Of a stretch of DNA of 64,000 bases, positions 19,267 to 64,000 are shown piece after piece. The notes beneath the pieces are model-generated. The model searched no databases, was not told the origin of the DNA, and saw only the letters and a list, made by a program, of their open reading frames with translations. The stretch covers positions 24,112,501-24,176,500 of the forward strand of contig CP141146.1 in assembly GCA_035235625.1 (NCBI GenBank), in the 5' to 3' direction. How positions within the stretch are numbered: position 1 is the stretch's first letter; every line of letters starts with the position of its first letter. This DNA is from Saururus chinensis (taxonomy: Eukaryota; Streptophyta; Magnoliopsida; Piperales; Saururaceae). A program made the translations under genes and the position numbers.

Positions 19267-20516
19267 TCATTTTGGTAGCTCATCCAGTTTCATGAGAATG
19301 TTCATCCAAAAGTTTGAGACGTCATCGTCATTACTATTGTAATAATCCTGATCATGATAATGCTCTCTTGAGAATCTAGGTACTTCTCCAACCTGCAGAG
19401 ATTGAAAAAGTTGCACTTGGTGAGCCTGTTGTGCTGATACTGAAAGGAAATCCGCCTGTATGCCGGTAACTTCTTGTTCTACTGTTTGTGCCGAACTGAT
19501 CCAGCTGCTTATATCAGACACACGACTGGTGTTATGATCTGACAAGCTATGACTGTCAGTGATCATTGAATCGAATTCCCACAATTCCAGCGTTGAGGCC
19601 CAGTTGGTATTTTTGGTTGGAATGTCAGGCTTGGGCACTGGTTCAAGGTAGGCGCTTGATCCTTCCGGTGGAACTGTGCTTTGCTTCTGGCGTTTCTTGA
19701 GGTGGGTGTGCCATACGTTCTTAATCTCATTGTCTGTTCTTCCTGGCAGCATTGCTGCTATTTGTGACCATCTGCAAATAATATCAAGAAAACAGTTACG
19801 AGATTGAGGAAGGTCTTGGTTTCACTTGGCTCAATGATTATAGCTTCTCAGTTTCATAAAAGAGGCCTCAATCAATGGTTTCTCTCTTCATTGGAGGACA
19901 CTAACTGATCTTCTTTTACATACAAGAAATTTTAAAAATCGGGCACAAGTCATTCAGCAGATCAAAAAGATACTTTTAGGTCTATGGAATATTGAGGACG
20001 TGCAATCTTTGTAAAGTGACTCAAAATGCTTTCTTCTAGAATTCAAATGAAAGTTCAACCTGTTGCCAAATTTAGCATGCAAGTTGATTATAGATTCTTT
20101 CTCCTCTTTGCTATAATTTCCTAATTTGACGTCTGGCCGCAAATAGTTTGTCCACCTGAATCTGCAGCTCTTCCCACACCTTAACAGGCCTGAATTGCAG
20201 AACAATTTTTACAGAAGACTGAAAATGAGAATACATTAAAAAGTTTTTTTCTATCTACTGTTTACCATTTGAATTATCATATAAATCTTGGATAGAGATT
20301 CTTGTTAGGAGCACTACTGCAAAGTGTTTGCTAATTTACTAAAATCAGAATGAAGGTAACCAATTTGTGAACTTGCTGCTCACCTGCCTTCTTGGGTAGG
20401 ATCTGCCAGTACCCGGGACCATGTTTTTCAACATAAGCTTTCAATATTTGATCTTCTTCTTTAGTCCAAGCTCCTTTCTTGAGCCCTACCTTATCGCAGC
20501 ATGGAGCTCTAACCAT
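19267..20516 (-). CDS. R2R3-MYB transcription factor (subgroup 2/MYB14-15-like)
   Basis: Three exons, 20516-20384 (133 bp), 20189-20060 (130 bp) and 19771-19267 (505 bp), join in frame to 255 codons ending in TGA. The 133/130 bp exons and intron phases are the hallmark of plant R2R3-MYBs. Introns are 194 and 288 bp with GT donors and AG acceptors. The ATG at 20516 gives MVRAPCC, the family's usual N-terminus; an in-frame ATG eight codons upstream is less typical. R2 has Trp17, Trp37 and Trp57. R3 has Tyr70 in place of the first hydrophobic residue, then Trp89 and Trp108, with [10 protein letters not shown] at 106-115. This binds MYB-type DNA elements in the nucleus. The R3 region ([13 protein letters not shown]) lacks the bHLH-interaction consensus. 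The Ser/Gln/Asp-rich C-terminus ends [14 protein letters not shown]. The [10 protein letters not shown] match suggests the stress/phenylpropanoid-linked MYB13/14/15 or MYB58/63 group; the exact orthologue is uncertain. No lesion is seen. Confidence 0.92.
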
Positions 20517-27459: not shown

Positions 27460-28220
27460 AGGATATTCATACATTGTCGGGGGGCACCCACCATGAGAGC
27501 CATGCCAGAAGTTATCACGTGCAAGATGTAGAGGTCTTATTCCCTCGAGGTAGGCACCCATTGTATAAACCTTCATACATTATCGAGGGGTGCCTACCGT
27601 GAGCGTCATTCTAGAAGTTCCCCCTGTGGTTCATATAGAGGCCTTACTCCCTCTTGGTGGGAACCCCCCTATATTTATATTCATACGTTGTCAGGGGATT
27701 CCCACTGTGAGAGCCATCTTAGATGTTCTCCTTGGCTCACATAGAGGTTTTACTCCCCCTCATTTGTTGTTGTGAGGAGTCCACCATGAGCACCATTTCA
27801 AAAGTTCCCCTATGTAGTTCACATAGAGGCTTTACTTCCTCGTTGTGGGTACCCCCGTATATAACTTCATAAGTTGTCAAGGGGGCCCACTGTGAAAGCC
27901 ATTCCAAAAGTTTTCTCTCGCTCACATACAGGCCTTACTCCCTCGTGGTGGGCACCCACTGTATATAACTTCATGTGTTGTCGGGGGGTGCCCACCGTAT
28001 GCCCCATTCTAGAAGTTTCCCATGGTCTACATAGAGGCCTTACTCCCTCATGGTGGACACCCCTGTATATAACTTCATACATTGTCCAGAAGATGGGGGG
28101 GGGGGGGGGGGGGAGGGGTGTGCATGCCTTGAGAACCATTCCAGAAGTTATCCTGTGCAATGTGCAGAGGCCTTATTACCTCATAGTGGGCACCTCGAGG
28201 GGTGCCCACTATGAGCGTCG
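27460..28220. repeat. ~105 bp GC-rich tandem array with GGTGGGCACCC palindromes
   Basis: TTCATAC-TTGTCGGGGGG-like blocks recur at about 27472, 27582, 27688, 27873, 27977 and 28080. Each is followed by GAGAGCCATTCCAGAAGTT, CACATAGAGGCCTTACTCCCTC and GGTGGGCACCC. Each unit can form small hairpins. In layout (GC palindrome plus an AGAAGTT/AGAAGGTT motif) it resembles the arrays in the MULEs at 45180 and 55185, though the sequences differ. A 19 bp G run at 28095-28113 interrupts one unit. Confidence 0.8.
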
Positions 28221-40961: not shown

Positions 40962-41494
40962 GAACATGGCTATTTCCCCCCACATTTTACTTAGGCCCCC
41001 CCAAATAAGAAATATGTGGGCTATTTTTTTATTACTTAGAACCCCCCAATTCCCACCCACACTACTAGTACAAGGCACCCCAATGAATAAAGAAAGGGAA
41101 AAAAAATCTTTCGTAATCCCTTTACTATGTTCGACGTGCATGAAGGTCTCGCCGACGGCAAGTAGGCTGTGAGCGCCGGAGTTCTACAATGTAACATCCC
41201 TCCCATCTTCCCCCCTCCCTATTATGTTCTTCCCTCCCATCTTTGTCTCCATGCATGAAGACTTCGCTGATTACAGAAGTTTCGCCTCTCTCCCACATCC
41301 CTGATTACAGAACTATTTGCATGCACTAAAAATTCCGTCGCTTCCCATCCTACTGAAAAAATCCTTCCTTTGGCTGCTTAACAAGTCATCTCTTTTAATT
41401 TTATGGGCCTTCAATGATCAAAATTTGGGTTCAAAGTACACCATGGCTACCTGAACTTCAACGTGCATGAAGGATTCAAAGCATGGTTCTATTT

Positions 41495-41945
41495 TATGTG
41501 ATGGGGGGTACCCCCACCAGGCAATCTCCAGAAAGGGTTGAAACCTTCAGGCTGGGTTCTTGCGAGGAGAGATCACCATTCAATTATGAATTATTTGAAA
41601 GGGACATGTAGTCCCTGTATAAATCTATTTTCTCTGGCGGGGTATCCCTCACCAAGAAAACTCCAGAAGGTGTTGAAACTTTCTGGATGGGCTATGGTGG
41701 GGAGAGATCACCGTTCAATTATGAAGAAGTTGACAGGGACATGTAGTCCCTATATAAATATGCTTCTTGTGGCGGGGGAGATTCCCTTCCAAGAAAACTT
41801 CAAAAGGTTTTCTATGGAGTTGAAATCTTCTGGATGAGTCCTGGCAGGTAGTGCTCACCGCCAAATATAAAGAATTGGACAGGGATTTTTAGTACCCATA
41901 TGATTCAATCATATATGGTGGGGGGTACCCCCACCAGTATATTTT
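41495..41945. repeat. Left hairpin array of MULE 1
   Basis: Roughly three units of 135-150 bp contain CTCCAGAAGGTGTTGAAAC, GAGAGATCACCATTCAATTATG, GACAGGGACATGTAGTCCCT and GGGGTACCCCCACC. The set reads as the reverse complement of the right array at 45180-45910, so the two arrays face each other around the transposase gene. Confidence 0.8.
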
Positions 41946-42059
41946 GCAGTGGTAAGATAAGTACTTGCTAAGTATCATTTACATTGGTTTTCTATTTTGA
42001 ATTTAAAGCATGATTCATAATTTATTTAAAATGTTATTTGTGTTGATGTATTAACTATG

Positions 42060-45000
42060 ATGGATAATTTTGTTAGGGATACATCATCCTTTACATCTTG
42101 TATGACATCCATGATGCAAAAGAAAGAAATTCCTTCATTGGTTTCCTCAATAGAAGAGATTGTTCCATGCTTATTAGATAAGATGGAGGAGCATTTAATA
42201 TCTAATGGCGAAGAAAATGAATCTTTCGAAGATGTATATTTCAAATTCTGCTTAAAATACTTTTATAAATATGTATATTGTACATCTTTTAGGTTAATAT
42301 TGTATGATGCCATGTACTCTTATTATAGGAACCAACTGAATGACAAAGCCATGACGACATTTTAAATACTGATATTTCATTTGCATTCGATGATGATAAG
42401 GTAATGGTCTTTTTTTTTCTTTATTTAAAGTTAAAAGGTGCATAACTTACTATATGTTGAGCTTACAACATGGATATAATTTGTAGGTATTTGGATCACG
42501 AGAGACGATGCAATCATGGGAAAAAGAAACATGTAACAAGTATGGGACAATTCTTGTTGTTCTAAAATTAGATGCTAAAAAAAGAAGGCCACGAGTTATA
42601 TTAGCATGTGAAAGGGCTTGTCAATATAGAAAGAGGACCATTAAAGAGGCCAATGTGGACGCAAAAAGGATTCCTAGAGAAGTATCTATAAAGAAGTGTA
42701 GATGCCCCTTCAAGTTATATGGTACTGAATTGTGCATTGATGGTGGCAAACAATAGAAATTGTGTGTCATCTGCGGTAGTCACAATCACTCCCTCTTGCA
42801 ATTTGGAGAAGGACACGCATATGCAGGTCGTCTAAAGATAGAGAGATAGAATTTTTGAAAGATTTATCAAAGACGGGAGTGAAAGCACGTGACATCTTGC
42901 TTACATTGAAGGAAAAGGATCCTTCAAACTTCTCTACCATCAAAACAATATACAATGCTTGTACTCGTATTCGTTTGACACAACGAGAAGGTAGAAGTGT
43001 ATTGCAAGAGATGATGAAGCGTATCAAAGATGCTGGTTATGTTTGCTACCATCAAAATAATGATGAAACAGATACACAAACAGATTTATTTTTTGCTCAT
43101 CCGATGTCTGTTAGGCTTGCAAATCTATTCCCACGTGTGTTTGTTATGGATTGCACATATAAGACCAACAAATATCGTCTCCCAGTTCTATCAATTATTG
43201 GAGTAACTTCAACTTATAATTCATTCTTCACTGGATTTGCATTTATCTCCTCTGAGAAAGAAAGTAAATATGTGTGGGCACTAAATTGTTTGAAGTCTTT
43301 CTTGACAGCAGGTGATCTTCTAGTAATTGTGATAGACAGAGATCAAGCATTGATGTGAGCAATTCAAGTGGTTTTTCCCACTTGAAAGAACATATTGTGC
43401 AAATGACATATTTCAACATGTGTAATGTGGAATTGTCAAAAAGCATTTAATACCGAGGTTGCATGGTTTGACTTCATGCAGCGTTGGAATGGAATTGTAC
43501 ATTCATCAGAGGAGAGTGCATACGATGAACAACCTCATATTTTGGACACTACAAAGATTTTAAGGAGGTGTTGACTTATCTTCATGCTACTTGGTTGGAG
43601 CCATTTAAGGAGCAATTTGTAGGTGCTTGGACGGACTGTTATATGCAATTCTGCAACAAGACCACCAATAGAGTTGAGAGCATGCATGCTAAATTAAAGA
43701 TGCAACTATGCTAATAATGGTTGACATACTTCAATCATGGTCCAATATTGATGAAATTTTCAACCTTCAACTTGATGAAGTGAGGAATTCATTTGAAGAA
43801 AGTAGATACAAGAGGTGTCACCAATTCAGAAATCCATTCTACAAAGAAGTAGTTGGGTTAGTGTCAAGGGCTGCATTGAATTTGATAGATGATGAAAAGG
43901 AAAAAAATTAAGCAGTTTCCAATTGAAGAAACATACTGTAGGCATGAATTGAGGAAAATACATGGCCTTCCAGGTAAGCACCAATTGACAAAGTGGTTAC
44001 TTGAAGATCGTCCGCTGCCATTGCATGAAATGCATGATCATTGGAAGACCCTTTATGTTGTTAGCAAAACAACTTATTCAATGGGACATGAATTAGTTGA
44101 TTGCTTTGAGAAGATTTATGAATGACAAGAAATGGCCAATGAGGGAGTGAAAACACAAATATTATCACAATGCAAACAAATTGCAGATCCTATGGCAATT
44201 TGAATGGAAATGCCTTCATTAGATACGAAGCAATGTGGTAGGCCAAAAGAAAGTAAAAACAAGTGGGATAGTTCTACTAAAAGAGATCCCTTCGGTTTTG
44301 AGTATGTAGCTGCTGAATTAAGAGCTCAACACAACGCTGGCATGAAGAAGTTGAAAACATGGAATAAGTCTAAAAAGAACGATGTGAAAGAAAGGTATGT
44401 GCATTGTCTTCCCATAGTCATGTAGTCATATGTGAAGGACAACTTCGACGTCCCTGCGGATGGCCATTGTGGTTTCCATGTGATATCATCTTTCTTAGAA
44501 CTTAGGGAACCTGGGTGGAAAATAGCGAGGACAGATTTGATATATGAAATTTCAATTCATAGGGACGAATATGAAAATATTTTTAGTCGATCTAGTAGGG
44601 TAGATGAACTTTTGGATTGTTTGAAGTTCTTTGGAGATGTGCCCCCCAAAAAAATTGGATGGCAATGCCAAACATCGGGTATGCTATTGCCTCTTGCTAC
44701 AATGTTCCTATGATTATAATTTCAAGGAGTCTTTGCATGACCATATTCCCATTTAGGACAACTCCTAAATCAAAGCATAAAAAATTTTGCGTAGCTCATG
44801 TTGATGACAATCATTTCATAGGGATACATATACGTAACAATGCACCTGTTCCATTCAATGCACCACCTTGGAGGAAGTACCACAATGCATGTGGAGATGC
44901 TTGAGAGAGTTTATACAAAGATCGGGTTGTAGATATGCATGAAGATAGTAGTGTCCGACCGTCGGGTGACATCATTGATCTAGTGAGTTCATGTGAAACA

Positions 45001-45080
45001 ATGGGGGGCTCCTATTGTGTCTAGTTTAATTTTAGTTGAATTTTTTTAATACATGTACATGACATTTTATTTTTAAGTTT
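42060..45080 (+). pseudogene. MULE 1 transposase with OTU domain (inactivated)
   Basis: The exon structure copies MULE 2: 42060-42233, 42329-42400, and a long exon from 42487. The zinc finger region keeps VICGSHNHS. The transposase core has MDCTYKTNKYRLPVLSIIGV near 43146 and a degraded second aspartate site near 43335. The SWIM-like CRHELRKIHGLPGKH has lost its third cysteine (Gly for Cys), and the OTU core is VPADGHCGFHVISSF near 44450. Lesions include TAG at 42754-42756, a frameshift near 42838, TGA stops near 43356, 43383 and 43404, a small deletion near 43545, TGA near 44201, TAG at 44422 and a frameshift in the A-run near 44650. At the position of the MULE 2 nonsense codon (52659) this copy keeps CGA. 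Confidence 0.85.
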
Positions 45081-45179
45081 GTACACATATTATAATTTTA
45101 TTTTATGAATGTGTTTTTTGAGTAAAAATATAGATTATGTAGTTATAGATATTATTTTATCTCTATAATGATTTATAGG

Positions 45180-45910
45180 CTTCTGGAGGTTTCATGAAGG
45201 GGGTTACCCCCGCCACAACAAAATGATCTATACGAGGACTAGACGTCCCCGTCAACTTCTTCAAAATTTGTTGCTAACCTCTCCCCCCTGCCAAAACTCT
45301 TCCAGAAGGTTACAACACATTGGAAAATCTTTTGGAGGTTGTCTGGCGGGGGGGGGGGGGGGGTACCCCCCACCACATCCAATGTATGCATACGGGGACT
45401 ATATGTCCCCGTCAAATTCTTCCTAATTTGGTGGTGATTGCTTCCCGCTAGAACTCCTCTAGAAGGTTTCAACACCCTCGAAAATCTTCTGGAAGTTGTT
45501 TGGTGGGGGGTACCCCCCGCCACATCCAATGTATGCATACGGGGACTACATATCCCTGTCAACTGCTTCCTAATGTGGTGGTGATTGCTCCCTGCCAAAA
45601 CTCATCTAGAAGGTTTCAACACCCTCGAAAATCTTCTGGAGGTTGTCTGGCAGGGGGTACAACCCTCCACATACAATGTATGCAAACGGGGACAAGGAGT
45701 CCCCATCAAATTCATCCTAATTTGGCGGTGATTGCTCCCCACCAGAACTCCTCCAGATAGTTTCAACACCCTCAAAAATCTTCTAGAAGTTGTCTGGTGA
45801 AGGGTACCCCCCGCCACATCCAATGTATGCATACAGGGACTACATGTCCCCATCAACTGCTTCCTAATTTGGCAGTGATTGCTCCCCGCCAGAACTCCTC
45901 CAAAAGGTTC
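45180..45910. repeat. Right hairpin array of MULE 1
   Basis: AATGTATGCATACGGGGAC recurs at 45381, 45529, 45675 and 45822, a ~147 bp period with about 4.5 units. Every unit contains GGCGGGGGGTACCCCCCGCC, a second palindrome around CGGGGACTACATGTCCCCG, and CTCCAGAAGGTTTCAACACC with a complementary CTTCTGGAGG. A 16 bp G run lies at 45348-45363. Confidence 0.9.
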
Positions 45911-46934
45911 TTGAGCTCATGGATGTAAAAGATCTCACTTTGGCTCATGTAAAATCTCAATTTCAGGTAATGCATAAGAAAAATCATATTTTCATTATCA
46001 CTCTAGATATGGGAAGAATTATTGTTTCACCTCATGAGTTTTCTTTGTCTTACATGATTTTTTTTTTTTGTGTAAAAATTTGGGCAGTAAATTTTCTTTT
46101 GATAATTTTCCAACAGATTATATTGTTTCAATGTGCAAGTGTATTTGCATCCAGTATTCCACATTGGCAGTAGAAATGTTGCTTTTGCCTATTGGCTACA
46201 TGAAGTCCATTAGTGTCTTCTTTTCTTCTTTGTTCATGATTTAGAAAGCCTACTACTAAGAATTTAAAGTAAAAAAGAAAGCCATGCCAAGGCAATCAAA
46301 TCTGATCAAATTACACTTATTTTTCTTTCTATTCCTCACATGTCTACATCCTGCAAACTCATGAAGTGCATTACCCTTCATACCCCACCCCTCTTCCCTT
46401 CATAAAGAGAAAAAACCACCAAAAAAGCATCAAAAGAAGAAAATTGTTGTAGGTTCATGATTCAATCAACAAGCTGTATTATTTTAACTAATAGTAGCAC
46501 TTTTGCTGATCTCCTAATCTCAAAGTCGTTAACCTGTCAAAGGTGCAATCTTCAACCTGTAGGTATTACAAAATTTTCATATTCATGCAAGCACTCACTG
46601 TCTTATGATGGTTGCACACTTATGCTAAATCAATCTTTGATTCATATACTATTAATTGTAAAACATCATTCACCAAAATCATAACAAAAAGAAATATTGG
46701 TTTCAACCTGTCCTCAACATTTACCTTGTACCTGCTTAATCAGCATCATACCACACACAATCATCATAAATATTGACTTCCAAACAATAAATTACCACCG
46801 TACCACACACAATCATCATATCGCAAAAGTATTCACATCACTATACTTCTTTTTTGAGTCTACTATTACAATGCTAATAAGAGTTAAAAGTCACACATAG
46901 TGTTTTGTCCAACGTTGAATAGTTGTAAGTAGGC
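45911..46934. other. Spacer in MULE 1, no gene seen
   Basis: AT-rich DNA between the right array and the last PMD exon. It is longer than the equivalent 55801-56299 of MULE 2. No coding signal is seen. Confidence 0.4.
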
Positions 46935-49118
46935 CTATTTAGAAACTCTTTTTCCCTTTCCTTTCAGTGCAACCTTTCCTCCTCGAGTTGAACTTCTTTT
47001 CCCAACAACAATGTTACTATGAGTAGGATCATCATAAAGAAGTTCCTCCAGAGCCAAACTCACTTTTCTTTTCCTTTCATTGTCCTCAAGTCCATTCAAA
47101 GATTCTTCTAACAAAGCAATAGCCCTCCACTTGTGGGCAAGCTGCATAAAAGAATTTTTTTAGTCTAGATATCAAACCATAAATAAATTCACAATTTCGA
47201 TAACATATGTACCCATTCTTCTTCAGTTAACTTTTGCCCTACGTTGTCTATTGCATACACTTTCCCATCTTTATTTTGCACAAGGGGGTGAGAAATTGTT
47301 TTATACCACTGCATGTAGTCATGTGCACAATCCCATGGATTTTTCACCATGTCTCCACATTATTTTGAAGGCAAGATATGTTTATTGCTATGCTTCCAAA
47401 GGTCGATGGTTGCATCATAGACAAGCTTATACCCCTTCGCATGTGCACGCCTACTAGAACCCTTGGGATTAGGCTGAGGTGGTTGTGGAGTGATTGTTTG
47501 TTCAAATCCAAATTGCCTTAGAACTCTTGCCGGATTGTAGGGTTCCCTAATTTGAAAACAAAAGAGGATCCCCAAATACATGGCATTAGTAGCTACTGGA
47601 TGATGCACTTGTTCTTCTTTAAATGGTTCCCATATAACCTACAATAAAATGCATTACGGTATCAGCTTTTGTCATATTCGGCTATGTGATTTAGTAAAGT
47701 GTATTTTTCCATACTAGATAATTGATATCGTTGGAAGATAATAACTAAATAAACAAAATTTACCAGACGAGCATCCAAATGATCTAGAGCCTCCCTGAAC
47801 TTTATAAGCTTATGCGCAGGATTAATTGGTTGTGAATTTTTCCCTTTCCAAAGTGGGGCTTGTGGCTGCCCTCTTTCATACGTAATGCTAGGAACTGGTC
47901 TCTCAATTTTGAAATGGTCTTATGACCATGCCTACCATACAAGACATCGTATATCGATTAATATAAAATGCAATATGTGAGGTAGTAACAAATACCAAAT
48001 AAGTGTATAAATAATTGAAATCTTACTATACCTCTAACAACGTAAGATATCCTCCAATCTATTGTACTTCAAATCTAGATGCAATACCCAGTTGACGATA
48101 TAAGTAGGCAAGGGTAGCTGCTCCCCATGTATACTTGCCGATGCCATTTATATCCATAAGCAAATTTAAATACTTTGTAGGTACATTTGTTCCAAATTTA
48201 TCACATAGGATGGTACAACCTAACAAATATAAGATGTATGCTCTTGTGGCACAATGCACATCCTCTTCGGTAGCATCCTCTGGTAATTGGCTAAATTTAT
48301 TACGCAACCAATTTAGTGTCAACCCCTTCCCTTTGCATTTGTTCAATTGTTCTTCAATCTCTTCCTTATCAATCCCTAAGGCATTGACACACAAATCAAC
48401 CAACTCCTCGCCATCAACATCGGGGGTTACCATTGCATGTCCCTTCATAGGAACCCGTATCAATTGTTGCACATCATCCAATGTGATTGTCAACTCTCCA
48501 AAAGGCATATGAAAAGTGTTTGTTTCCGGATACCACCTTTCGACTAAAAACGATATCCACATTCTATTGATGGTCTTGTATGAAACATATGTCAATGGAA
48601 ACAAACCGCTTACCTTTATTAGTAGACTAATAACATTGTCCTCCACATCCCAAGCAACAAGCTTCTTATGATGATGAATACACCGGAGAGGTCCACGGTC
48701 CTATTAATAAGTATGAATTATATTATCAAACATAGATTAAATGCATTTAAATTAAAAAAATAAAGTTTAACCAATTTACCTTGCTTTTCCAAATGTCATT
48801 TGCAACATGGGTCTTATAATTACTTAAAATTGTACTTTCCATGGGGTCTCCTGGGAAGGGGAATATTTCATCATCTACTGCTTCACCCTCTCCCTCTTCT
48901 CCATTATTTTCATCATCATCTTCTTCTTCTTCTTCCCCCTCTCCTCTGTCATTTTCATCTTCTTCCCCCTCTTCTTAATTAGTTTCTTGCATATTTGTTT
49001 CTATGGGCTCTTGTTTCTCATTTAATTTAGCATCTACTTCCACCTCTCCTTCAATTTCTCCTTCTTTCATTTCAGTTCGTCGTCTCCTATACAACACAGT
49101 TGGGTGAGGCCTCGTCAT
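46935..49118 (-). pseudogene. Plant mobile domain (PMD) gene of MULE 1 (inactivated)
   Basis: Five exons with consensus splice sites: 49118-48780, 48700-48032, 47931-47764, 47638-47213 and 47141-46935. Exon 1 encodes an acidic leader with Glu/Asp runs. Exon 2 is the PMD core (FHMPFGELTITLDDVQQLIR, YLLGCTILCDKFG, LAYLYRQLGIAS). Exon 3 has HFKIERPVPS and exon 4 has REPYNPARVLRQFGFEQTI. Exon 5 ends in a basic tail (KGKGKRVSK). PMD proteins include Arabidopsis MAIN/MAIL1, nuclear factors linked to transposon silencing and genome stability; many transposon-borne versions are annotated as phosphatase 7 long form. Lesions: TAA near 48976, TAG at 48059-48061, and TAA in exons 3 and 4. Confidence 0.85.
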
Positions 49119-50380
49119 CTTCTCAGCTTGCCTTTAGAACAATAAATTATAATCAAACAATAAAGGACAATAATAAAATGATTTCTACCAATGTATTGTT
49201 TAATTTGACAAAGACAATCAACTGTTGATATAAGTGCAATCTAAATCTCTAGATTGGAAAAGCTTTAAAAAAAAGAAAAAGCAAAAAGCTCTCAATCATG
49301 TGGGACTAAACTTAGTACATCATTTTATTGCAATACAAGTAAATGCCATGTGAGTCAAACTCAAGAAAAATTAAAGAAACAATAATATTAAATCTAGTAT
49401 TTATTTACAATCAATCAACACATTAACACATCAATAACAACTTAAATTAACTTGAGGGTATGCTAAAGAAAATTAGTTGATGTTTACTCTGCCTTAGGCA
49501 AAGTAAGAGAAAAATGTATCTAAAGTAGAATGAAAATACATATAGAAAATGGATGAAAAAAATTTTGTTCACTACTGACCCATTAATGACCTCTGGAAAA
49601 GATTAGCATCATGATCATTATTATATATTAGCAATAGAACAAAGACATGATCAGACCAAATGATGATAGGTAAAAGCTCTCCAAAATGTACTAATCAAGA
49701 ATAAAATATACTTGAGAGATATCTATGTTGGTAGCCACCAGTAAATAGTATGCACTTAGTGACTCTCAAGTGCATCTAACTTGCAAATCTACATTGTCTA
49801 ATTTATTGAAAAATAAAAAGTGGTTTAAAGAAAGTGAAATCCGATCAATTACAGATCCGGAAAATTTTATATCAAGGATAGAATGTGAATCTAGCATACA
49901 AGTGTATCAGTGTCAGTTTAAACAACAAACACACAATAAATGTTGTGTAGCTCAATACAAGTAGTACTCAAACTCTACAAAATCATTTTCCAGCATTTTA
50001 TGGTGATAGTACTAGGAAGGGTAAGGAGGGTGTATCATAAAATCGTAGTCATTTCAGTAAAATTATGATAAGAAAAAAAATTCCACTAGTTCATCAAGCA
50101 AAAATTTACTAGGTTAACCTATTACTACTTACTTCATTTCAGTAAAAATTTCTATTTTACATTAGTCAGAAAATTAATCACTCCAAAGCCCTTTTGGTCA
50201 CCACGAGTTGCAAGGTAAAGTGAACTACATTAGCCTACAGATTGGTAAACATTTTAACAAACAATATATACACACTTAGATACAATCATACATTAACAAT
50301 ATAAACTACATATAATGCTCACATTACAAAGACAAATTAAAGAAATATGGGAACCAAGCACTAACCTTTTTGGGAGTAAA
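49119..50380. other. AT-rich 3' spacer of MULE 1
   Basis: No gene is recognised. It would include the promoter of the minus-strand PMD gene. Confidence 0.4.
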
Positions 50381-50600
50381 CTCTTCATCAACAAACGGAG
50401 AGGACTTGGAGGGTATAGGGGACGGGAGGGGAGGAGATGAGATAGGACGGGAGGCGATGCGATGGAGGCAGAGGGGAGGGGGGGGGATGGGAGGAGAAGG
50501 GAAGTGACGGGAGGAGAGGGGATGGAATGATGGGAGGCAAGGAGACGGGAGGGGAAAGGTGGGGGGCACGGGCCAGATGAGTTGGGGGGGGTGGGGGACA
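50381..50600. repeat. Purine-rich tract near the MULE 1 3' end
   Basis: About 200 bp of almost pure G/A on the plus strand, built from GGGAGGGGA- and GATGGGAGG-like words. It has the same position and style as 60060-60300 in MULE 2. Proline/serine-rich minus-strand open frames here follow from base composition. Confidence 0.8.
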
Positions 50601-50731
50601 TAGAGGGGTTCTAAGTAAAAATCATTTTCAGGGTGAGAGTGGGGTGTAGGGAAGTAAATTGTGTGTTTTATTTGGGGTGTGTAAAGTTTGGAGGGCGCTG
50701 AGTAAATTGTGGAGGGGAAATATCCGCGTTC

Positions 50732-51053
50732 TATTATTATTTGTAAAAAGATCCAAATAGTTAAACATGAAGGGTACATGTTTGGACGTGCTACGTACAA
50801 TATTAGTTAGACACCTCAATATATTAAACTATGATTTTTATAATTAACAATACATCACTTAAATTTAACCATGATTTTCATAATGGATAATACATTCAGC
50901 ATATCAAGTTAGGTAAGCATGGCTATAAGAAGCATAAAAAGAATTAGAGTGAAGATCCTAAGTTCATGATTTAAAAACTCACTCCCGGAATGAGACTTCC
51001 AAGGGCATTAGAAGCTCCTAAAACCCCAACTCCAAGTCATTGGTAAATAATAT
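50732..51053. other. Spacer between the two MULEs
   Basis: 322 bp of AT-rich DNA. Its last nine bases (51045-51053, AAATAATAT) are the left copy of the MULE 2 target duplication. No gene. Confidence 0.6.
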
Positions 51054-51544
51054 GAACGCAGCTATTCCCCCCCCCCCCCCCCCCCCCCCCCCAATATTCA
51101 TTCCGGGCCCCCCAAATAAGAAATATGTGGGTAGTTTTTTTATTACTCAGCACCCCCTACACTATTCTTAAGGCACCCCAGTTAAGAAAGAAAAAAAAAC
51201 CCTTTCGTATCCCCTTCACTATACTGGACGTGCATGAACTTCTCACCGGCGGCAACCTATAATGGTCGTCCCTCCCAATTGCTTCTTAATGCATGAAAAT
51301 AACGTTGATTATAGGAGTTCATCCCATCTTCCTCCCTGCCTATAATGGTGTCCATCCCAATTACTGTAATGGCATCCCTCTGCATGCACTTAAAAATCTT
51401 TGCTTCCCATCAAACTCAAAAAATTCTTTTCTTTGGGTGATTAGCAAGTCAATATTTATTGATTTTCTGGGCATTCAACGAATAGAATTTGGGTTGATAG
51501 TACGCCATGGCAAAACGTGCTCGAGGGTTTCAAAACATTGTTCT

Positions 51545-52020
51545 GCTTGTCGTGACGGGGGGTACCCCCGCCAGTAAATCGCCCGAACAAGTTGAAATCT
51601 TCGGGATAAGTTCTGGCGGGGAGAGATCACCATTCCATTATGAATAATTTGACATTGACATAAAGTCCCCGTATAAATGTTGTTTTATTTGGCAGGGCAT
51701 ACCCACCGTCAGGAAAACTCCAGAAGGTGTTGTAACCTTCTGGATGAGCTATGGCGGGGGGAGATCACCATTTAATTATGAAGCATTTGATGGGGACATG
51801 TAGTCCCCAGTCCCCTTATAAATATTCTTCTTGTTACAGGGGGTATCCCATGCCAAGATAACTTCAGAAGGTTTTGTAAGGAGTTAAAATCTTCTGGATG
51901 AGTTGTGGCGGGGAGTGCTCACCGACGTAATAGAAATCCGTTGACGGGGACTTTTAGTACCCATATGATTTTGTCATATATGGCAGATGGTACCCCCTGC
52001 TAGTAGTTTCTGTAGTGGTA
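51545..52020. repeat. Left hairpin array of MULE 2
   Basis: About three units with GGGGTACCCCCGCCAG, CTCCAGAAGGTGTTGTAACC, GAGATCACCATTTAATTATG and GGGGACATGTAGTCCCC, inverted relative to the right array at 55185-55800. The inner edge reads TAGTTTCTGTAGTGG. Confidence 0.8.
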
Positions 52021-52125
52021 AGATACGTATTTGTAGAGCATCATTTATGTTGGTTTTCTATTTTGAATTTAAACCATTATTGGTAATATATTTAAAATTT
52101 TATTTGTGTGGATGTCTTAACTAGG

Positions 52126-55083
52126 ATGGATAATTTTATTGGGGATACATCATCCTTTACATCTTTAATGACATCCATGATGCAAAAAAAAGAACTTCTT
52201 TCACCGGTTTCCTCAATAGAAGAGCTTGTTCCATGCTCATTAGATCAGATGGAGGAGCATTTACTATCTAATGGCGAAGAAAATGAATATTCTGAAGAGG
52301 TATATTTGAAAATATGCTTCAAATACTTTTATAAATATGTATATTGTTCATTTTTTAGGTTAATCTTGTATGATGTCACGTACTCTTATAATAGGAACCA
52401 ATGGAACGACAAAGCCATGACGACATTTTAAATACTGATATTTCATTTGCATTCGATGATGATAAGGTAATGGTCCTTTTTTTTTCCTTATGTAAAGTTG
52501 AAAGGTGCATAGCTTACTATATGTTGAGCTTACAACATGGATATCATTTGTAGGTGTTTGAATCACGAGAGATGATGGAATCATGGGCAAAAGAAACATG
52601 TAAGAAGTATGGGACAATTCTTGTTGTTCTAAAATCAGATGCTAGAAAAAGAAGGCCATGAGTTTTATCAGCATGTGAAAGGTCCGGTCAATACAGAAAG
52701 AGGACGATTAAAGAGGCTAATGTGGACATAGAAAGGATTCCTAGAGAAGTATCTACAAAGAAATGTAGTTGCCCCTTTAAGTTATATGGTATTGAATTGA
52801 GCATTAATGGTGGCAAACAATGGAAATTGCATGTCATATGTGGTAGTCACAATCGCCCCCCCTTGCAATTTGGAGAAGGTCACGCATATGCAGGCCGTCT
52901 AAAAAACAGAGAGATAGAATTTTTGAAAGATTTATCGAAGACGGGAGTGAAAGCACGTGACATCTTGCTAACATTGAAGGAAAAGGATCCTTCGAACTGC
53001 TCTACCATCAAAACAATATACAATGCTCGTTCTCGTATTCATTTGACACAACGAGAAGGTAGAAGTGTATTGCAAGAGATGATGAAGCGTATCAAAGATG
53101 TTGGTTATGTTTGCTACCATCGAAATAATGATGAGACTGATACAATAACGGATTTATTTTTTGCTCATCTGATGTCTGTTAGGCTTGCAAATCTATTCCC
53201 ACATGTGTTTATTATGGATTGCACATATAAGACCAACATATATCGTCTCCTGGTTCTATCAATTATTGGAGTTACTTCAACTTATAAGTCATTCTTCACT
53301 GGATTTGCATTTATCTACTATGAGAAAGAAAGTGAATATGAGTGGGCACTAAATTGTTTGAAGTCTTTGTTGACAGCAGGTGATCTTCCGGGAGTAATTG
53401 TGACAGATAGAGATCAAGCCTTGATGCATGCAATTCAGGTGGTTTTCCCCACATCAAAGAACATATTGTGTAAATGGCATATTTCAACATGTGTAATGAG
53501 AAATTGTCGAAAAGCATTTAATACCGAGGCTGCATGGGTTGACTTCATGCGGCGTTGGAATGGAATTGTACATTCATCAGAGGAGAGTGAGTACAATGAA
53601 CAACTTCATATTTTGGACATAGACTACAAAGATTTTAAGGAGGTGTTGACTTATCTTCATCCTACTTGGTTGGAGCCATTCAAGGAGCAATTTGTAGGCG
53701 CTTGGAAAGATAATTATATGCATTTCAGCAACAAGACCACTAATAGAGTTGAGAGCCTGCATGCTAAATTGAAGATGCAACTATGCTCATCAATGGTTGA
53801 CATACTTCAATCATGGTCCAATATTGATGAAATTGTCAACCTTCAACTTGATGAAGTGAGGAAGTCATTTGAAGAAAGTAGATACAAGCGGTGCCACCAA
53901 TTCAGAAATCCATTCTACAAAGAAGTAGTTGGGTTAGTGTCAAGGGCTGCATTGAAATTGATAAATGATGAAAGGAAAAAAATTGAGCAGTTTCCAATTG
54001 AAGAAACACATTGTATGCATGAATTGAGGAAAACACATGGCCTTCCATGTAAGCACCAATTGATAAAGTGGTTACTTGAAGATTGTCCGCTGCCATTGCA
54101 TGAAATACATGATCATTGGAAGACACTTTATGTTGTGAGCAAAACAACTTATTCAATGGGACATGAATTAGTTGATTGCTTTGATAAAATTTATGAACGA
54201 TATGAAATGTCCAATGAGGGGGTGAAAATACAAATATTATCACAATGTAAACAAATTGCAAATCCTTCGGCAATTTGGATGGAAATGCCGTCAAACTGTA
54301 CGAAGCAACGTGGTAGGCCAAAAGGAAGTAAAAACAAGCGGGACAGTTCTACCAAAAGAGATCCCTCCAGTTTTGAGTATGTAGTTGCTGATTTAAGAGC
54401 TCAACACAAAGCTGGCATGAAGAAGCTGATAAACAGGGAATAAGTCTAAAAAGAATAATGATGTGAAAGAAAGGTATGTGCATTGCCTTCCCACAGTCAT
54501 GCAGTCATATGTGAAGGGCATCTTCGACGTCCCTGCAGATGGCCATTGTGGGTTCCATGTCATTTCATCTTTCTTAGAACTCAGGGAACCTGGGTGGAAA
54601 ACAACGAGAACAGATTTGATATATGAAATTTTAGTTCATAGGGACGAATATGAAAATATTTTAAGTGGATCTAGTAGGGTAGATGAACTTTTCGATTGTT
54701 TGAAGTTCTTCGGAGATGTGGCCCCCCAAAAACATTGGATGACAATGCCAGACATGGGGTATGTTATTGCCTCTTGCTACAATGTCCCTGTGATTCTGAT
54801 TTTGAGGAGTCTTTGCATGACCATATTCCCATTTAGGACAGCTCCTACATCAAAGCATAAAAAAATCTGCATGGCTCACGTTGATGATAATCATTTCATA
54901 GGGATACATATACCTAACAATGCCCCTATTCCATTTATTGCACCACCTTGGAGGAAGTACCACAATGCATGTGCAGATGGATGGGAGAGTTTATACAAAG
55001 ATCGGGTTGTTGATATGCAAGAAGATATTAGTGTCCGACCGTCGGGTGATATCATTGAAGATAGTAGTCTAATTTTAGTTTAG
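52126..55083 (+). pseudogene. MULE 2 transposase fused to an OTU-type cysteine protease (two lesions)
   Basis: Exons 52126-52299, 52395-52466 and 52554 onward join in frame and, without lesions, would give about 900 residues. Domains in order: an acidic N-terminus; a FAR1/WRKY-GCM1-like zinc finger (CERSGQYR, KKCSCPFKLYG, VICGSHNR with the last His changed); a MULE transposase core with MDCTYKTN and VTDRDQALM as two acidic sites and CKWHIST; a SWIM finger CMHELRKTHGLPCKHQL near 54015; an RGRPKGSKNKR segment, AT-hook-like, near 54310; and an OTU domain with VPADGHCGFHVISSF (catalytic Cys region) near 54529 and HVDDNHFIGIHI (catalytic His region) near 54880. Lesions: a TGA at 52659-52661 where MULE 1 has CGA, and a +1 frameshift near 54430 that separates the OTU part (54463-55083). 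The transposase moves the element; the OTU role is unknown. Confidence 0.9.
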
Positions 55084-55184
55084 TTTTTTTAATACATGTA
55101 CATGACACTTTTTATTAAATTTTGAACACATATTTTAATTTTATTTTATGAATGTGTTTTGTGAGTAATGTCTTCAATAGGTAT

Positions 55185-55800
55185 AAACCCCGCCATAATA
55201 TTTTAGATCTATAATGAATTATTGGCTTATGGAGGTTTCATGACGGGGGTTAAACCCCGCCATTTTAAATGGCTATATACGGGGGACTAAATGTCCCCGT
55301 CACATTATTCCCAAATTGGCAGTGCCCTCTCCCCGCCAACAATCGTCCAGAAGGTTTCAACACCCTCGAGATTCTTTTGGAAATTGTATGGCGTGGGTTA
55401 CCCACCGCAACCTTCAATGGACATATATGGGGACCGTGTGTCCCCGACCAATGATTCGTTATGTTGCAGTGACAGGCACCCGCCAGAACTCTTCCAGAAA
55501 GTATCAAATCCCTCAACAATCTTCTGGAATTTGTCTGGCTGGGGGTACCCCCCGCCATATTACATGCATGCATACGGGGACCGTATGTCACCGTCAACGT
55601 CTTCATAATGGGGCGGTGATAGGCACCCGCCAGAACTCCTCCAGAAGGTTTCAAAACCCTCGACAATCTTCTGGAAGTTGTCTGGCGGGGGGTACCCCCC
55701 GCCACATTAAATTCATGCATACGGGGACAGTATGTTCCCGTCTTATTCTCATATTTGGGCGGTGATGGGAACCCGCCAGAACTCCTCCAGAATGCTAAAC
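55185..55800. repeat. Right hairpin array of MULE 2
   Basis: Four units of ~147 bp, marked by ACGGGGAC-GTATGT-CCCGTC at about 55275, 55430, 55574 and 55720, with GGCGGGGGGTACCCCCCGCC and CTCCAGAAGGTTTCAA. Unit-to-unit differences are larger than in MULE 1. Confidence 0.9.
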
Positions 55801-56299
55801 CATAAAAAATGTTCTTCCCTTCATATTGACAAAAAAACCACCTAAAAAAAGAATGAAAAGAAGAAATTTTTTGCTGCTTCATGATTCAATTTAGAAGCTG
55901 TATTCAACCTACAGGTATGACAAACTTTTTCATATTCGTCCAAGCATTCACTGCCTTATGACCGTATGCACAAATTTTGCTGCTTCTATTCAAATACTAT
56001 TGATTGTAAAACATCATTCACCAATTTCATCATAAAGGGAAATATTGACTTCAACATGTCTACAACATTTACCTCATACCTGCTTAATTATCATCGTAGC
56101 ACACACAATCATCATACCACACACAATCATCATAACTATTGACTTCAAAAAAGTAAATTACAATCGTACCACACACGATCATCACATAGCAAAAGTATTC
56201 ACACACAATACTTCTTTTTTGAGTATAGTATTACAATGCAAAAAAGAGTTAAAAGTCACACATAGTGTTTTGTCCAAGATTGAATATTCGTAAGTAGGC
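55801..56299. other. Spacer in MULE 2, no gene seen
   Basis: AT-rich sequence homologous to part of 46380-46930 in MULE 1, with repeated CACACAATCATCAT words. Confidence 0.45.
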
Positions 56300-58461
56300 C
56301 TATTTAGAATCTCTTTTTCCCTTTCCCTTCAGTGCAGGCTTTCGTCCTTGAGTTGAACTTCTTTTCCCAATGACAATGTTGCTATGAGTAGGATCATCAT
56401 AAAGAAGTTCCTCCAGAGCTAAACTCACTTTTCTTTTGTCTTCGTTGTCCTCAAGTCCATTCAAAGATTCTTCTAACAAAGCAATAGCCTTATGCTTGTG
56501 GGCAAGCTGCATATAATAATTTTGTAGTCAAATATCTAACCATAAAAAAATTTCACAATTTCAATAACATACATACCCATTCTTCTTCAGTTGATTTTTG
56601 CCCTACGTAGTCTATTGCATACAATTGCCCATCTGGATTTTGCACCAGGGGGTAAGAAATTGTTTTGTACCACTGCATGTAGTCATGTGTACAATCCCAT
56701 GGATTTCTCACCATGTCTCCACATCGTTTTGACGGCAAGATGTGCCTATTGCTATGCTTCCAAAGGTTGATGTTTGCGTCATATACAAGCTTATACCCCT
56801 TTGCATGCGCACACCTACTAGAACCCCGGGGATTAGGCTGAGGTGGTTGTGGAGGGATTGTTCGTACAAATCCAAATTGCCTTAGAACTCTTTCCGAATT
56901 GTAGGGTTCCCTAATTTGAAAACAAAAGAGGATCCCCGAATACATGGCATTTGCAGCTATTGGATGATGCACTCGTTCTTCTTTATATGGTTGCCATATA
57001 ACCTACAAAAAAATGCATTGCGGTTTTAGTAATTGTCATATTCAGCTATGTGATTGAGTTTAGTGTAATTTTACGTACTTATAGTTGTAAGATAATAACT
57101 AAATAAACAAAATTTACCCGACAAGCATCCAAATGTTCTAGAGCCTCCCTAAACTTTATAAGCTTATGCGCAGGATTAATTGGTTGTGAGTTTATCCCTT
57201 TCCAAAGTAGGGCTCGTGGCTGCCCTCTTTCATAAGTACTGCTAGGAACTGGTCTCTCTATTTTGAAATGGTCATATGATCATGCCTACCATAAAAGACA
57301 TCATATATCGTTTAATATAAAGTGCAATATGTGAGGTAGAAACAAATACCAAATAAGTTTATAAATAATTCAAATCTTACTATACCTCTAACAGCGTAAG
57401 ATATCTGCCAATTTGTCGCACTTCAGCTCTAGATGCAATACCCAATTGATGATATAAGTAGGCAAGTGTAGCTGCTCCTCATGCGTACTTGTCGATGCCA
57501 TTTATATCCATAAGCAAATTCAAATACTTCGCAGGCGCCTTTGTTCCAGATTTATCACAGAGGATGGTACATCCTAACAAATATAAGATGTATGCTCTCA
57601 CGAAACAATGCACATCCTCTTCGGTTGCATCTTCTGGTAATTGGCTAAATTTATTGCGCAACCAATTTAGTGACAACCCCTTCCCTTTACATTTGTTCTG
57701 CAATCTCTTCCCTATCAATCCCAAAGGCATTCACACACAAATCAACCAACCCCTCGCCATCAACGTCAGGGGTTACCACTGCATGTCCCTTCACAGGAAC
57801 CCCTATCAATTGTTGCACATCATCCAATGTAATTGTCAACTCTCCGAAAGGCATATGAAAAGAGTTTGTTTCCGGATACCACCGTTCGACTAAAGACAAT
57901 ATCCACATTCTATTGATGGTCTTGTATGAAACATATGTCAACGGAAACAAACCACTTGCCTTTATTAGTGGACTAATAACACTGTCCTCCACATCCCAAG
58001 CTATAAGCTTCTTATGATGATGAATACACCGGAGAGGCCCATGGTCCTATAAGTATGAATTATATTATCAAACATAGAGTAAAATGCTTGTAAAGTAAAA
58101 AGATAAAGTTTAACCGACTTACTTTGCTTTTCCAAATGGCATTTGCAACATGGGTCTTATAATTACTTAAAATTGTACTTTCCATGGGCCCTCCTGGGAA
58201 GGGGAATGTTTCATCATCTTCTGCTTCACCCTCTCCCTCTTCTCCATTATTTTCATCATCATCATCTTCTTCTTCTTCTCCCTCTCCTCTGTCATTGTCA
58301 TCCTCTTCCCTCTCTTCTTCATTAGTTTCATGCATATTTGTTTCAGCAGGCTCATGTTGCTCATTTAATCTAGCATCTACTTCCACATCTCCTTGAACTT
58401 CTCCTTCCTTCATTTCAGTTTGTCGTCTCCTATACGACGTAGTTGGGTGAGGCCTTGGCAT
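56300..58461 (-). pseudogene. Plant mobile domain (PMD) gene of MULE 2 (inactivated)
   Basis: Same five-exon plan as 46935-49118, starting at ATG 58461 (MPRPHPTTSYRRR). The acidic leader is uninterrupted here, unlike in MULE 1. The PMD core (FHMPFGELTITLDDVQQLIG, YLLGCTILCDKSG) is in exon 2. RVLRQFGFVRTIPPQPPQP is in exon 4, and a basic C-terminal tail in exon 5 (56512-56300). Lesions differ from copy 1: a frameshift by small deletion near 57698, TGA at 57479-57481 in place of a Trp codon, and TGA in exon 3 near 57282. The positions that are stops in copy 1 (48976, 48059, exon 4) are sense codons here. Confidence 0.85.
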
Positions 58462-60050
58462 CTTCTCAGCTTGCCTTTAAAACAACAAAATATAATCAAA
58501 TAATAAAAGACAATAACAAATAATAATCAAATACAATCAACTGTTAATATAATGTCCCTCTAAATCTCCAGATTGGATAAACCAGGGGAAATTATAACAA
58601 AAATATAATGAAACAACACAGCATAAGTAGCCAAGTTGGCAAGATGCCTTACACAAGTTGACGAGATTCGCAAAGGAGGAAAGTATCAGAAATAATTAAT
58701 GACGAGATTTGCAGTTTCAGTCCAGCTTCAACCATATAAATAATAACAAAATCAATCTTCTTACATTCCTTAAGTGGTTATACAACCTCAAATTAATATT
58801 GCAGATTAAGTATGATGGTAAGCAACATAGAAATCAGTACAATGGTTTCAGGGCTATACATCATCGAAATTCAAAAGCAAAAATGAAAATTATAGTAGCA
58901 TGTGCTTGAAACAATCAAATATTCAAGAAGGATAAATTGTTTGATTTATGGTTCATGATGAGGTTACAAAAGAACCATCAAATGAAATGTGACTAATATG
59001 AATGAAATAACTTGAAGTAATCGATTGTTAACTAAATGCCTTATTACAAATTACAACTAAAGATGTTCGAAGTTTAATTTATTACTAAAATCTGCTCTGC
59101 TACCAACTGACTAATTCTGCTATAAGCAACTTGCTATGAATTTGATAAAAAAAAAACCCACATTACAAAGATATACGTGTATTACCACTAATACTCAATA
59201 AGATATAAAAAAATCACTCATATTCATGCCTTGGATATTGAAATGGTGCAACATGAACATCTAATAATGTGAAGATTAATAATAGCCAAATAATAACGCA
59301 AGTAATGAAGGGAATGATATATTGCAATTTAAATTGAAATATCACCCCAAAGTAACTAACTCCAATTATACTGAGAGGCAAACTCTAACACTAAGAGTAA
59401 ACATACTATAAGCTTAGAGCAACAAGCTGCAATGCTAAGAGTGCATGAACTCCTACTCAAAGGAGTGAGCTACAAATGAACAACATATTTCAATATTTCT
59501 AAAGATTTATTTGGATCCGTCCTAGGCTTTGGGATCTGGGTATCATCAAAATACTCAATAGACAACGATAGCTAGACAAGAGAATAAGGAAAACCACAAA
59601 AAAGTATTGGAAGAACACTACCACACAAGTTCAGACAAACAATAAAAGAATCCCTCCTACACACAGCCAATATGAACAAAATGAATAATGAATTTACTTA
59701 TAACTACATGACCACGAAAATATCACATTCCCATTTATGAAATGCAGCTATAAGAGATATACATTTATTGAAATGTACCATAAAATCTTAGTCATTTCAG
59801 TAAAATCATTTCAGTAAAAATTTCTCTTTTACATTAGTCAAAATATTAATCAGTCCAACGCCCTTAGATACATTAGCCTACAAAGCCCTTACATACATTA
59901 GCCTACAGATTAGTAAGCATTTTAACAAACACTACATGCGCACTTAGATACAATCATACATTAACAACATAAACTACATATAATGCTCACATTACAAAGA
60001 CAAATTAAAGTAATATAGGAACCAAGCACTAACCTCTTTCGGAGTGAACT
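58462..60050. other. AT-rich 3' spacer of MULE 2
   Basis: No gene is recognised. It is the equivalent of 49119-50380 and likely holds the PMD promoter. Confidence 0.4.
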
Positions 60051-60059
60051 AATCATCAA

Positions 60060-60300
60060 TTTACGGAGAGGACTTGGAGGGAATAGGGGTCGGGAGGGGA
60101 GGGGAGGGGACGAGAGGAGACAATACGGGAGGGGAGTGGAGGTGAGGCGGGTAGATAGGGTGGGCCTGGAGGGGAGGGCAGGAGACAATATGGGAGGGCA
60201 GGGGATGGTAGGAGACAAGATTGGAGGGCAGGGGAAGGGGACTTCACCGGAGGAGAGGGGCCGGAGGGGAGTGGACTTCATCGGAGGAGATGGGATGGAA
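60060..60300. repeat. Purine-rich tract with G-quadruplex motif near the MULE 2 3' end
   Basis: Almost pure G/A on the plus strand. GGGAGGGGAGGGGAGGGG starts at 60092, a textbook four-run G-quadruplex pattern. Further GGAGGGGAGTGGAGG words follow. Confidence 0.85.
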
Positions 60301-60553
60301 CTAGGGAAGAAAATACCGGAGGGCAGGAGGTTGGGGGCGTATTGAGAAAAAATAAATGATGTGGTAAGGGTGGGGTGTAGGGAAGTAAAATCAATATTTT
60401 AATTGGGGTGGGAAAAGCATGGGGGGTGATGAGCTTTTGTTGGGGGGAAAATATCCGCATTCAAATAATATATAAACATCCAATATCCATCTGATGAATT
60501 AATAGATGCAATATCGATATGAAATATCCCTAAGCTAATCTAATCAATGTGTT

Positions 60554-62729: not shown

Positions 62730-62912
62730 ACCCCCTTCCTCAGCTTGTTTGAATCTCACACCTCCTCTGCCCCTCAACAGATAATAGCATGGAGATGAGG
62801 CCGCTTTTTTCTTGCCAACCACCATCTATGGCTAGTAGTGGCCTCTTCCACCTCCAGCCCCATCAACCCCCAAAACCGGTGCTTTCCCTATGGCCACTAC
62901 CTTTGCTAAAGA
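62730..62912. repeat. Dispersed duplicate, copy 2, interrupted by a CACTA end
   Basis: Homologous to 61425-61605. The similarity runs to GCTAAAGA and stops exactly where CACTACAACAAAA begins at 62913, marking the CACTA insertion point. In copy 1 the sequence continues ...CTAAAGAGTCGTAG. Confidence 0.75.
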
Positions 62913-63545
62913 CACTACAACAAAAAGAACTATTAGCAATACTTTTAAGCGACCCTAATAGTCATATAAGCATTGCTAATGCCTATTAGCGATGTTTTAA
63001 AAGTGTCGCTAAATGCATCGATAAAAATGGAGTTGCTATTGTTCATCAGCTACGTTATGTCAAAGCGTCACTAATAGTCTGCTATTAGCAACATTTTTTT
63101 TTGCGTTAGTAATTATTTTCCTTCTATGACGCTTTATTAAGAATCACTAATAGTAAATTATTAGTGACATTTAATTCTAAACATCTCTAATAATTAATTT
63201 TGCCTACACTTCATAAAGCGTCACTAATATAAAAAATTCTAAAAAAATGTCTTGTTAGCAATGCTTGTCTATGCTTCACTAATAATTTAATTAATACAGA
63301 AATTATTAGCGATGCTTTTGAAAATGTTGCTAATAAGAATAAATTTGAAAAAATTAATTAAAAATAATTATTAGCGATGCTTTTCAAAAACTGTTGCTAA
63401 TAAAAAATATATTTTAAAAAAGATAGTGTTTATTAGCGACGTTTTATAAAGCATTGCTAATTTGTAAAAAAAAAAGTAAAAAAAAAGCTATTAGCGACAT
63501 TTTTTATTGAATTGCTAACAACTTGAAAAAAATTTAAAACTATTC
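62913..63545 (+). mobile_element. CACTA transposon 5' end with long subterminal repeat region
   Basis: CACTACAACAAAAAG is followed by more than ten variants of TTAGCGATGCTTT...AAAGCGTCACTAATA over about 600 bp. It is the same family type as 23068. The other end lies outside the window or is lost. Confidence 0.8.
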
Positions 63546-64000
63546 CCGCCTAAGGCAGCATGTATGGAGGGGCGCTAGCGCCCCTCCTCCGGCTAGGGTA
63601 GGGGTGGTGGGTAAATGGAGGAGGAGGGGGGCTGGGGGGTGACCGGGGAGAGGAAGGAGGAGGGGAAGCTGGATCCGCTCCCTAGAACCCCCTCCAGTCT
63701 GACAGAGGGAGGGAGGGGGGAGGGGGGAAGGGGGAACAAAGAGGGAGGGGATGACCGTGGAAAGGGGGGAGGGCGATCCGGAATCCGATGTGGAGCAGGA
63801 ATCCCATCCTCCGGTTGGACGAGAGGAGAGGAGGGGGCTGAAAATTGGGGTGGGAGGGGCGATTCACTGGTAGGGGGTGTGACCGGGTTGAAGGGGAAGG
63901 GGGTGGTGACTGGGGATAGGGGGGAGGAGGGGGAGCTAGAATTACTACAATAAAAAGGACTATTAGCGACACTTTTAAGCGTCACTAATAGTTCCCCAAG
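63546..64000. mobile_element. G-rich CACTA interior and a second degenerate terminus
   Basis: A perfect 22 bp palindrome (core GGGGCGCTAGCGCCCC) lies at 63566-63587. About 370 bp of purine/G-rich DNA follows. At 63942 ATTACTACAATAAAAAGGAC leads into TTAGCGACACTTTTAAGCGT, another CACTA-like start in the same orientation, which runs off the window. Open frames here are low-complexity. Confidence 0.6.

Follow-up and report, generated by a model that had tools for sequence, protein, structure and literature searches.

In a 64,000-nucleotide window of the Saururus chinensis genome (the whole stretch analyzed: GCA_035235625.1, contig CP141146.1, positions 24,112,501–24,176,500 of the forward strand), the segments 40962–50731 and 51054–60462 represent one Mutator-like element (MULE) family, present here in two copies. 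In each, a FAR1-type transposase is joined to an OTU protease, and a plant mobile domain (PMD) gene occupies the opposite strand. We lean somewhat towards regarding the PMD protein as a VANC-like anti-silencing factor that would act on the palindromic arrays of its own element, a reading guided by a predicted fold. The precedent is VANC21, which binds a short motif arrayed in the noncoding DNA of its own element; those repeats are renewed through tandem duplication (PMC5735166, PMC10398659). The predicted VANC-like fold, arrays whose units change around a constant core, and retention of the array in copies without genes all match features of the VANC21 system, which leads to the anti-silencing reading.

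The end sequence GAACGCGGATATTTCCCC matches four places in the window with at most three mismatches, at 40962(+), 50714–50731(−), 51054(+), and 60445–60462(−), against a chance mean of 0.01. The terminal inverted repeats are these short 18-bp ends, with no long terminal inverted repeat. The four facing ends, together with an identity of ~88–94% between the coding parts, bear out the proposal of an earlier note on this DNA that a head-to-tail pair of one MULE family is present. Identity falls to ~73–83% in the arrays and to 51–57%, in effect unalignable, between 49.25–50.13 kb and 58.57–59.74 kb; the 322-bp spacer between the copies matches neither element. Stops and indels disrupt both copies. 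An origin of the element from two nested insertions was rejected, given the target site duplications (TSDs) and the common layout. The elements and their flanks are as follows.

40962–50731, plus strand: upstream element, 9,770 bp; both genes broken; without a target duplication
51054–60462, plus strand: downstream element, 9,409 bp; fewer lesions than the upstream copy
51045–51053, no strand: left 9-bp TSD of the downstream copy, AAATAATAT
60463–60471, no strand: right 9-bp TSD of the downstream copy, AAATAATAT, a perfect repeat of the left

The right gene of each copy, read inwards from the far end, provides the PMD protein, and its parts were placed as listed here.

46938–49118, minus strand: PMD gene, upstream copy
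56303–58461, minus strand: PMD gene, downstream copy; modeled with five coding exons (58461–58123, 58046–57386, 57285–57118, 57002–56577, and 56506–56303, an inferred model) and an acidic N-terminus
50401–50620, minus strand: CT-rich stretch, upstream copy; read as the PMD leader and followed by a donor-like site
60061–60390, minus strand: CT-rich stretch, downstream copy; read as the PMD leader

The domain is assigned to PMD by Pfam (PF10536, 129.8 bits versus a cut-off of 34.9; E 1.8e-37). PMD has been described as a domain of unknown function linked to silencing of transposable elements (PMC8616336). The predicted structure of a PMD relative shares the fold of the VANC21 DNA-binding domain. 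At the sequence level, DUF1985 matches 23 of 42 rows at E ≤ 1, a weak signal, and the database's annotation assigns PF09331 to the relatives P0133 and P0245. The counter-defense idea raised in the earlier note thus gains support from the VANC21-like predicted fold, though it is not new for MULE-borne PMDs. That note had also described a purine-rich 3' tract. The tract is present, just inside the right end, but on the PMD strand it is the CT-rich stretch, which we reread as the probable 5' leader of the PMD gene; the donor-like site after it is common to both copies.

Four tandem hairpin arrays form the putative targets of this protein.

41504–41960, minus strand: left array, upstream copy; tandem hairpin, period ~135
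45200–45909, plus strand: right array, upstream copy; tandem hairpin, period 147, opposite in orientation to the left array
51550–52000, minus strand: left array, downstream copy; tandem hairpin
55255–55792, plus strand: right array, downstream copy; tandem hairpin, period 147

The palindromic units measure ~135–147 bp; the core of the arrays is GGGGGTACCCCC. Left and right arrays are opposite in orientation, being 65–69% identical as inverted repeats over their longest matches. In this respect the facing hairpin arrays of the earlier note stand, but its placement of the PMD gene between them does not: the arrays flank only the transposase–OTU gene, upstream of the transposase and downstream of the OTU part, and the PMD gene lies outside both. 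Units within the upstream right array resemble each other more (0.81) than they do units of the other copy (0.74). No clear within-copy excess is seen for the downstream right array (0.74 within) or for the left arrays (0.77 and 0.66 inside each copy, 0.72 across copies).

The palindromic units also raise the prospect that the arrays act as RNA, their hairpins or inverted copies making small RNAs or ending transcripts apart from the PMD protein. Folding is favorable to this view, with z at or below −2.9 in six of seven folded units (−4.90 to −2.96; seven of the 12 aligned units were folded). Pairing reaches 92.2%, compared with 42–54% in slid controls, and the arrays are inverted about the transposase–OTU gene. 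The seventh unit, however, gave z −0.21, and covariation is modest: double changes occur in three of 15 pairs. At least as many appeared in 49 of 500 shuffles, and the control slid by −3 has more, namely four. The core is moreover a double-strand palindrome, as would equally be expected of a protein-binding site. We consider a role as RNA quite improbable.

The layout recurs elsewhere in the 516-Mb source assembly (11 contigs). A transposase search returned 86 matches, which merge by eye into ~68 loci outside the window, and a 10-kb stretch was read at each of the 20 best. Of these 20, 17 have OTU after the transposase, 16 have an opposed PMD gene, and 15 have both, so that most of these members lack neither part, contrary to the finding that the earlier note had named as fatal to its proposal. 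No opposed PMD gene lies within the stretch at L014, L022, L024, or L028, and no OTU at L014, L023, or L028; only 3' exons of PMD were found at L011, L013, and L015. A control 10-kb stretch elsewhere in the window has none of these features. Perfect 9-bp TSDs bound seven of the 22 copies (the downstream window copy, L010, L017, L019, L025, L027, and L029), all of which hold the transposase, PMD, and at least part of the OTU (47 aa in L029). L016 has a TSD with two mismatches; L018, L021, L022, and the upstream window copy have candidate ends on both sides with no matching repeat, and the other 10 lack an end within the stretch.

Two subfamilies emerge from these loci: 11 near the window copies and nine divergent ones, with ~62% transposase identity, in a subfamily that still carries both genes. 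Within the near group, 10 of 11 loci contain the window-type array and seven of 11 the left array. The divergent group has no match to the window-type array; tandem arrays nevertheless occupy the same place in eight of nine loci (TRF), and the core GGGGGTACCCC occurs one to eight times in all nine and nowhere else in those stretches. A separate search for arrays produced 286 candidates, 40 of which were scored, so place counts are lower bounds; a listed transposase match is found within 12 kb for two of the 40. Two others of these, short derivatives, were read: L030 (1.5 kb, with a perfect 9-bp TSD) and L031 (1.6 kb, flanked by a 7-bp repeat). Each has retained its two ends and its array, and neither matches the genes; ends plus array therefore look like a cis-acting kit.

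Retention of ends and array in these two derivatives would also suit a PMD gene that aids insertion in the manner of mudrB of MuDR, with the arrays serving as transposase-binding sites. The convergent position of the PMD gene is that of mudrB (PMC9168764), whereas a VANC-like predicted fold would not be expected of such a helper. We judge this explanation unlikely.

Selection was compared between the subfamilies in four pairs, with dS of 0.87–1.58. The ratio dN/dS was 0.18–0.19 for the transposase, 0.20–0.23 for the OTU part, 0.08–0.09 for PMD exon B, and 0.17–0.21 for PMD exon D. All three protein parts are under purifying selection, and the lowest value, in exon B, marks the PMD core as the most constrained part. 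Between the window copies the ratios are higher, at 0.52 (0.37–0.72) for the transposase, 0.33 (0.19–0.61) for the OTU part, and 0.44 (0.30–0.64) for PMD, as expected with post-insertion decay added. The same values speak to whether the PMD gene merely rides along, as a host gene that a MULE picked up and that has no role. MULEs often catch host genes, and Ikeda et al. infer MULE capture of PMD-C genes (PMC5418596). A passenger would hardly persist as a full-length PMD in two subfamilies at dS ~1.5 with a core-exon dN/dS of ~0.09, below that of the transposase, and this already disfavored explanation is in our view very improbable.

The left gene of each copy supplies the transposase with its C-terminal OTU part.

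42060–44370, plus strand: transposase gene, upstream copy; approximate, placed by alignment, with 8 in-frame stops in the aligned codons
52126–54443, plus strand: transposase gene, downstream copy; inferred coding exons 52126–52299, 52395–52466, and 52554 onward
44378–44979, plus strand: OTU part, upstream copy
54457–55080, plus strand: OTU part, downstream copy; Cys39 and His154 of the open reading frame (ORF) starting at 54433

The transposase matches the Pfam MULE family at E 6.8e-21, and the 593-aa ORF of the downstream copy contains conserved D186, D249, and E364, the putative catalytic residues. By eye, a single frame crosses the junction with the OTU part in the upstream copy, whereas an indel interrupts it in the downstream one; coordinates place both parts in one frame at L010, L011, L017, L018, and L019. 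Pfam scores the OTU part below threshold (PF02338, 14.3 bits versus 23.3; E 0.061), OTU was not called at E ≤ 1 in any of 10 relatives with the same tail, and a phmmer search of the Protein Data Bank (PDB) with the OTU part returned one weak, unrelated match. The predicted structure supports an OTU fold, and D36, G37, C39, and H154 are at least 90% conserved in 33 rows and present in both window copies. The transposase–OTU fusion and minus-strand PMD gene of the earlier note thus hold, through the Pfam MULE and PMD matches and this predicted structure. As side observations, Tyr replaces the catalytic Cys in the OTU part of L018 (oriented), and L026 has a 384-bp internal tandem duplication within its OTU part (3693–4462, oriented).

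Among the best 120 of 307 transposase relatives, 64 match the OTU part; of the 52 that are 750 aa or longer, 49 do so, which makes the OTU fusion normal in this MULE clade. By a strict motif count among the 64, 50 have the Cys box and 25 the His box, with 19 having both. Their names include 'PKS-NRPS hybrid synthetase cheA-like' and 'FAR1-RELATED SEQUENCE', the kind of odd annotation under which MULE–OTU proteins had been predicted to exist. If the OTU part cleaves ubiquitin, as its modeled fold suggests, it would probably trim ubiquitin off the transposase or host factors at the element, shielding the transposase or editing ubiquitin on nearby chromatin.

These parts form a MuDR-like layout of two convergent genes in which the transposase–OTU protein would serve mobilization. 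The PMD protein, with its predicted fold like that of the VANC21 DNA-binding domain, would most likely bind the palindromic arrays in the element's noncoding DNA and, once bound, lift host silencing as VANC21 does for VANDAL21. The protein could instead block the host MAIN/MAIL1/PP7L silencing complex as a decoy or dominant negative, without binding the arrays. MAIN and MAIL1 are themselves PMD proteins; they interact with one another and with PP7L, and silencing of transposable elements depends on them (PMC7156037). They are also required for MORC1 expression (PMC9899485), and Ikeda et al. propose anti-silencing for MULE PMDs (PMC5418596). A decoy would leave unexplained both the array turnover around a kept core and the retention of arrays in the derivatives read. 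The DOWN-type motif, moreover, is not clearly enriched in the window, with 10 matches (at most one mismatch) against 6.3 expected, a number equaled or exceeded in seven of 100 shuffles. We give the decoy a low probability.

Several observations weigh against a VANC-like, array-binding role. The fold comparison used a model of an Acorus relative, 44% identical to the window PMD exon, rather than the window protein, and likeness of fold to VANC21 does not by itself prove PMD function. A PMD profile found no match at E ≤ 10 among PDB sequences, VANC21 included, and DUF1985 scores against the window PMD exon (19.4 bits; another score was 13.6) stay below the Pfam cut-off of 35.1. The host PMD proteins MAIN and MAIL1 promote silencing (PMC5418596, PMC7156037). 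The arrays might just as well serve the transposase as its sites, and the nine loci of the divergent subfamily yielded no long left array. The flanks of the upstream copy have no 9-bp TSD (four of nine positions match), and its present ends may therefore not stem from one original insertion. Comparison of the window copies reveals no constraint on the first transposase exon (dN/dS 1.43, bootstrap 0.51–9.00), and within the divergent group dN/dS varies, with some OTU and PMD pairs above 1 on few changes. Linkage in other genomes is likewise unhelpful, at little weight: among the best 120 transposase relatives and 120 PMD relatives, contigs common to the two sets, judged by eye from their lengths, are only chromosome-sized ones of Glycine and Lotus.

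PMD relatives numbered 43 in one search and 269 in another, 120 of the latter being listed; among 158 PMD relatives compared at 1e-3, none resembles the transposase or OTU. A tree of 90 relatives, built by a quick method and with long branches and warnings, was used solely for lineage-specific copy groups, such as those of soybean and tea, which are as would be expected of transposon-borne copies. In tea, PMD genes hold 175 phased-siRNA loci (PMC10673657), which suggests that hosts target PMD genes. Nothing was confirmed in a viral collection with the transposase and PMD profiles. A prokaryote collection yielded one MULE transposase (L001), on a contig filed under an uncultured Trichormus metagenome-assembled genome; no OTU tail was found in its translations or by tblastn with three OTU-bearing relatives, and it probably comes from a plant, the fern host, whose DNA was binned with the bacterium.

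Elsewhere in the window, a further tandem array of 105-bp period with palindrome-like GGTGGGCACCCC units lies at 27819–28086, and dense short TATTAGCGA-type repeats with inverted copies at 62900–63560 (by eye) are perhaps a hairpin-type MITE or foldback element. By eye, an ORF at 19267–19821 (minus strand) resembles the C-terminal exon of an R2R3-MYB and is probably a host gene, and ORFs at 33674–35923 (plus) and 14258–15037 (minus) are degenerate Copia-like gag/pol fragments. An Rfam search at E ≤ 0.1 gave a single match, under its own family threshold, which we take as chance.

Several parts of this arrangement have precedents. The VANDAL21/KI-MULEs of Arabidopsis, with VANC genes, likewise pair a MULE transposase with a second gene and carry fast-changing tandem arrays in noncoding DNA (PMC13317346, PMC5735166). 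Likeness to VANC21 itself lies in the fold predicted for the PMD relative, DUF1985 sequence support being weak. Some VANDALs carry a ULP1 protease domain (PMC13317346, PMC5735166), whereas the window family has OTU fused to the transposase; it also differs in having the PMD Pfam family rather than VANC proper, short inverted ends, and 9-bp TSDs. MULE-encoded PMDs with a proposed anti-silencing role are also reported from grass and Amborella PMD-C elements (Ikeda et al. 2017, PMC5418596), where the PMD is described as transposase-fused; here it is a separate convergent gene, and OTU is on the transposase. The plant FAR1/MULE–OTU proteins annotated as cheA-like, compared as proteins alone, have the same fusion and are up to ~40% identical over most of the transposase. 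Ginger1 has a C-terminal OTU or Ulp1 (PMC2836005) on an unrelated, Gypsy-integrase-like transposase of animals. MuDR and Hvu_Abermu share the transposase, reverse-strand second gene, and 9-bp TSD (PMC9168764), but the ORFR is without known function, and the words OTU and plant mobile are absent from the main text of that paper.

MULE-borne PMDs with a possible anti-silencing role (PMC5418596), transposase–protease fusions (PMC2836005), and convergent second genes (PMC9168764) are thus already published. Searches of a library of open papers listed none on OTU and PMD in one MULE or on a PMD–VANC fold link, although the article behind PDB 9lnj may remark on a resemblance to PMD, and no match for OTU–PMD retention across loci or an array core common to two subfamilies.

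Tentatively, and with slightly less than even confidence, PMD and VANC may form one superfamily of transposon-born, sequence-specific DNA binders. MULEs would use these with co-evolving arrays against silencing, MAIN and MAIL1 would have turned to silencing, and the OTU-transposase and PMD would constitute one mobilization and counter-silencing set. A VANC21-like fold, if true for PMD, gives this domain a concrete, testable job, sequence-specific DNA binding, for which the arrays of the two subfamilies, with the same core in different surroundings, are ready probes. The predicted likeness of PMD to VANC21 suggests that a factor by which plants silence transposons and one by which transposons resist silencing share their origin.

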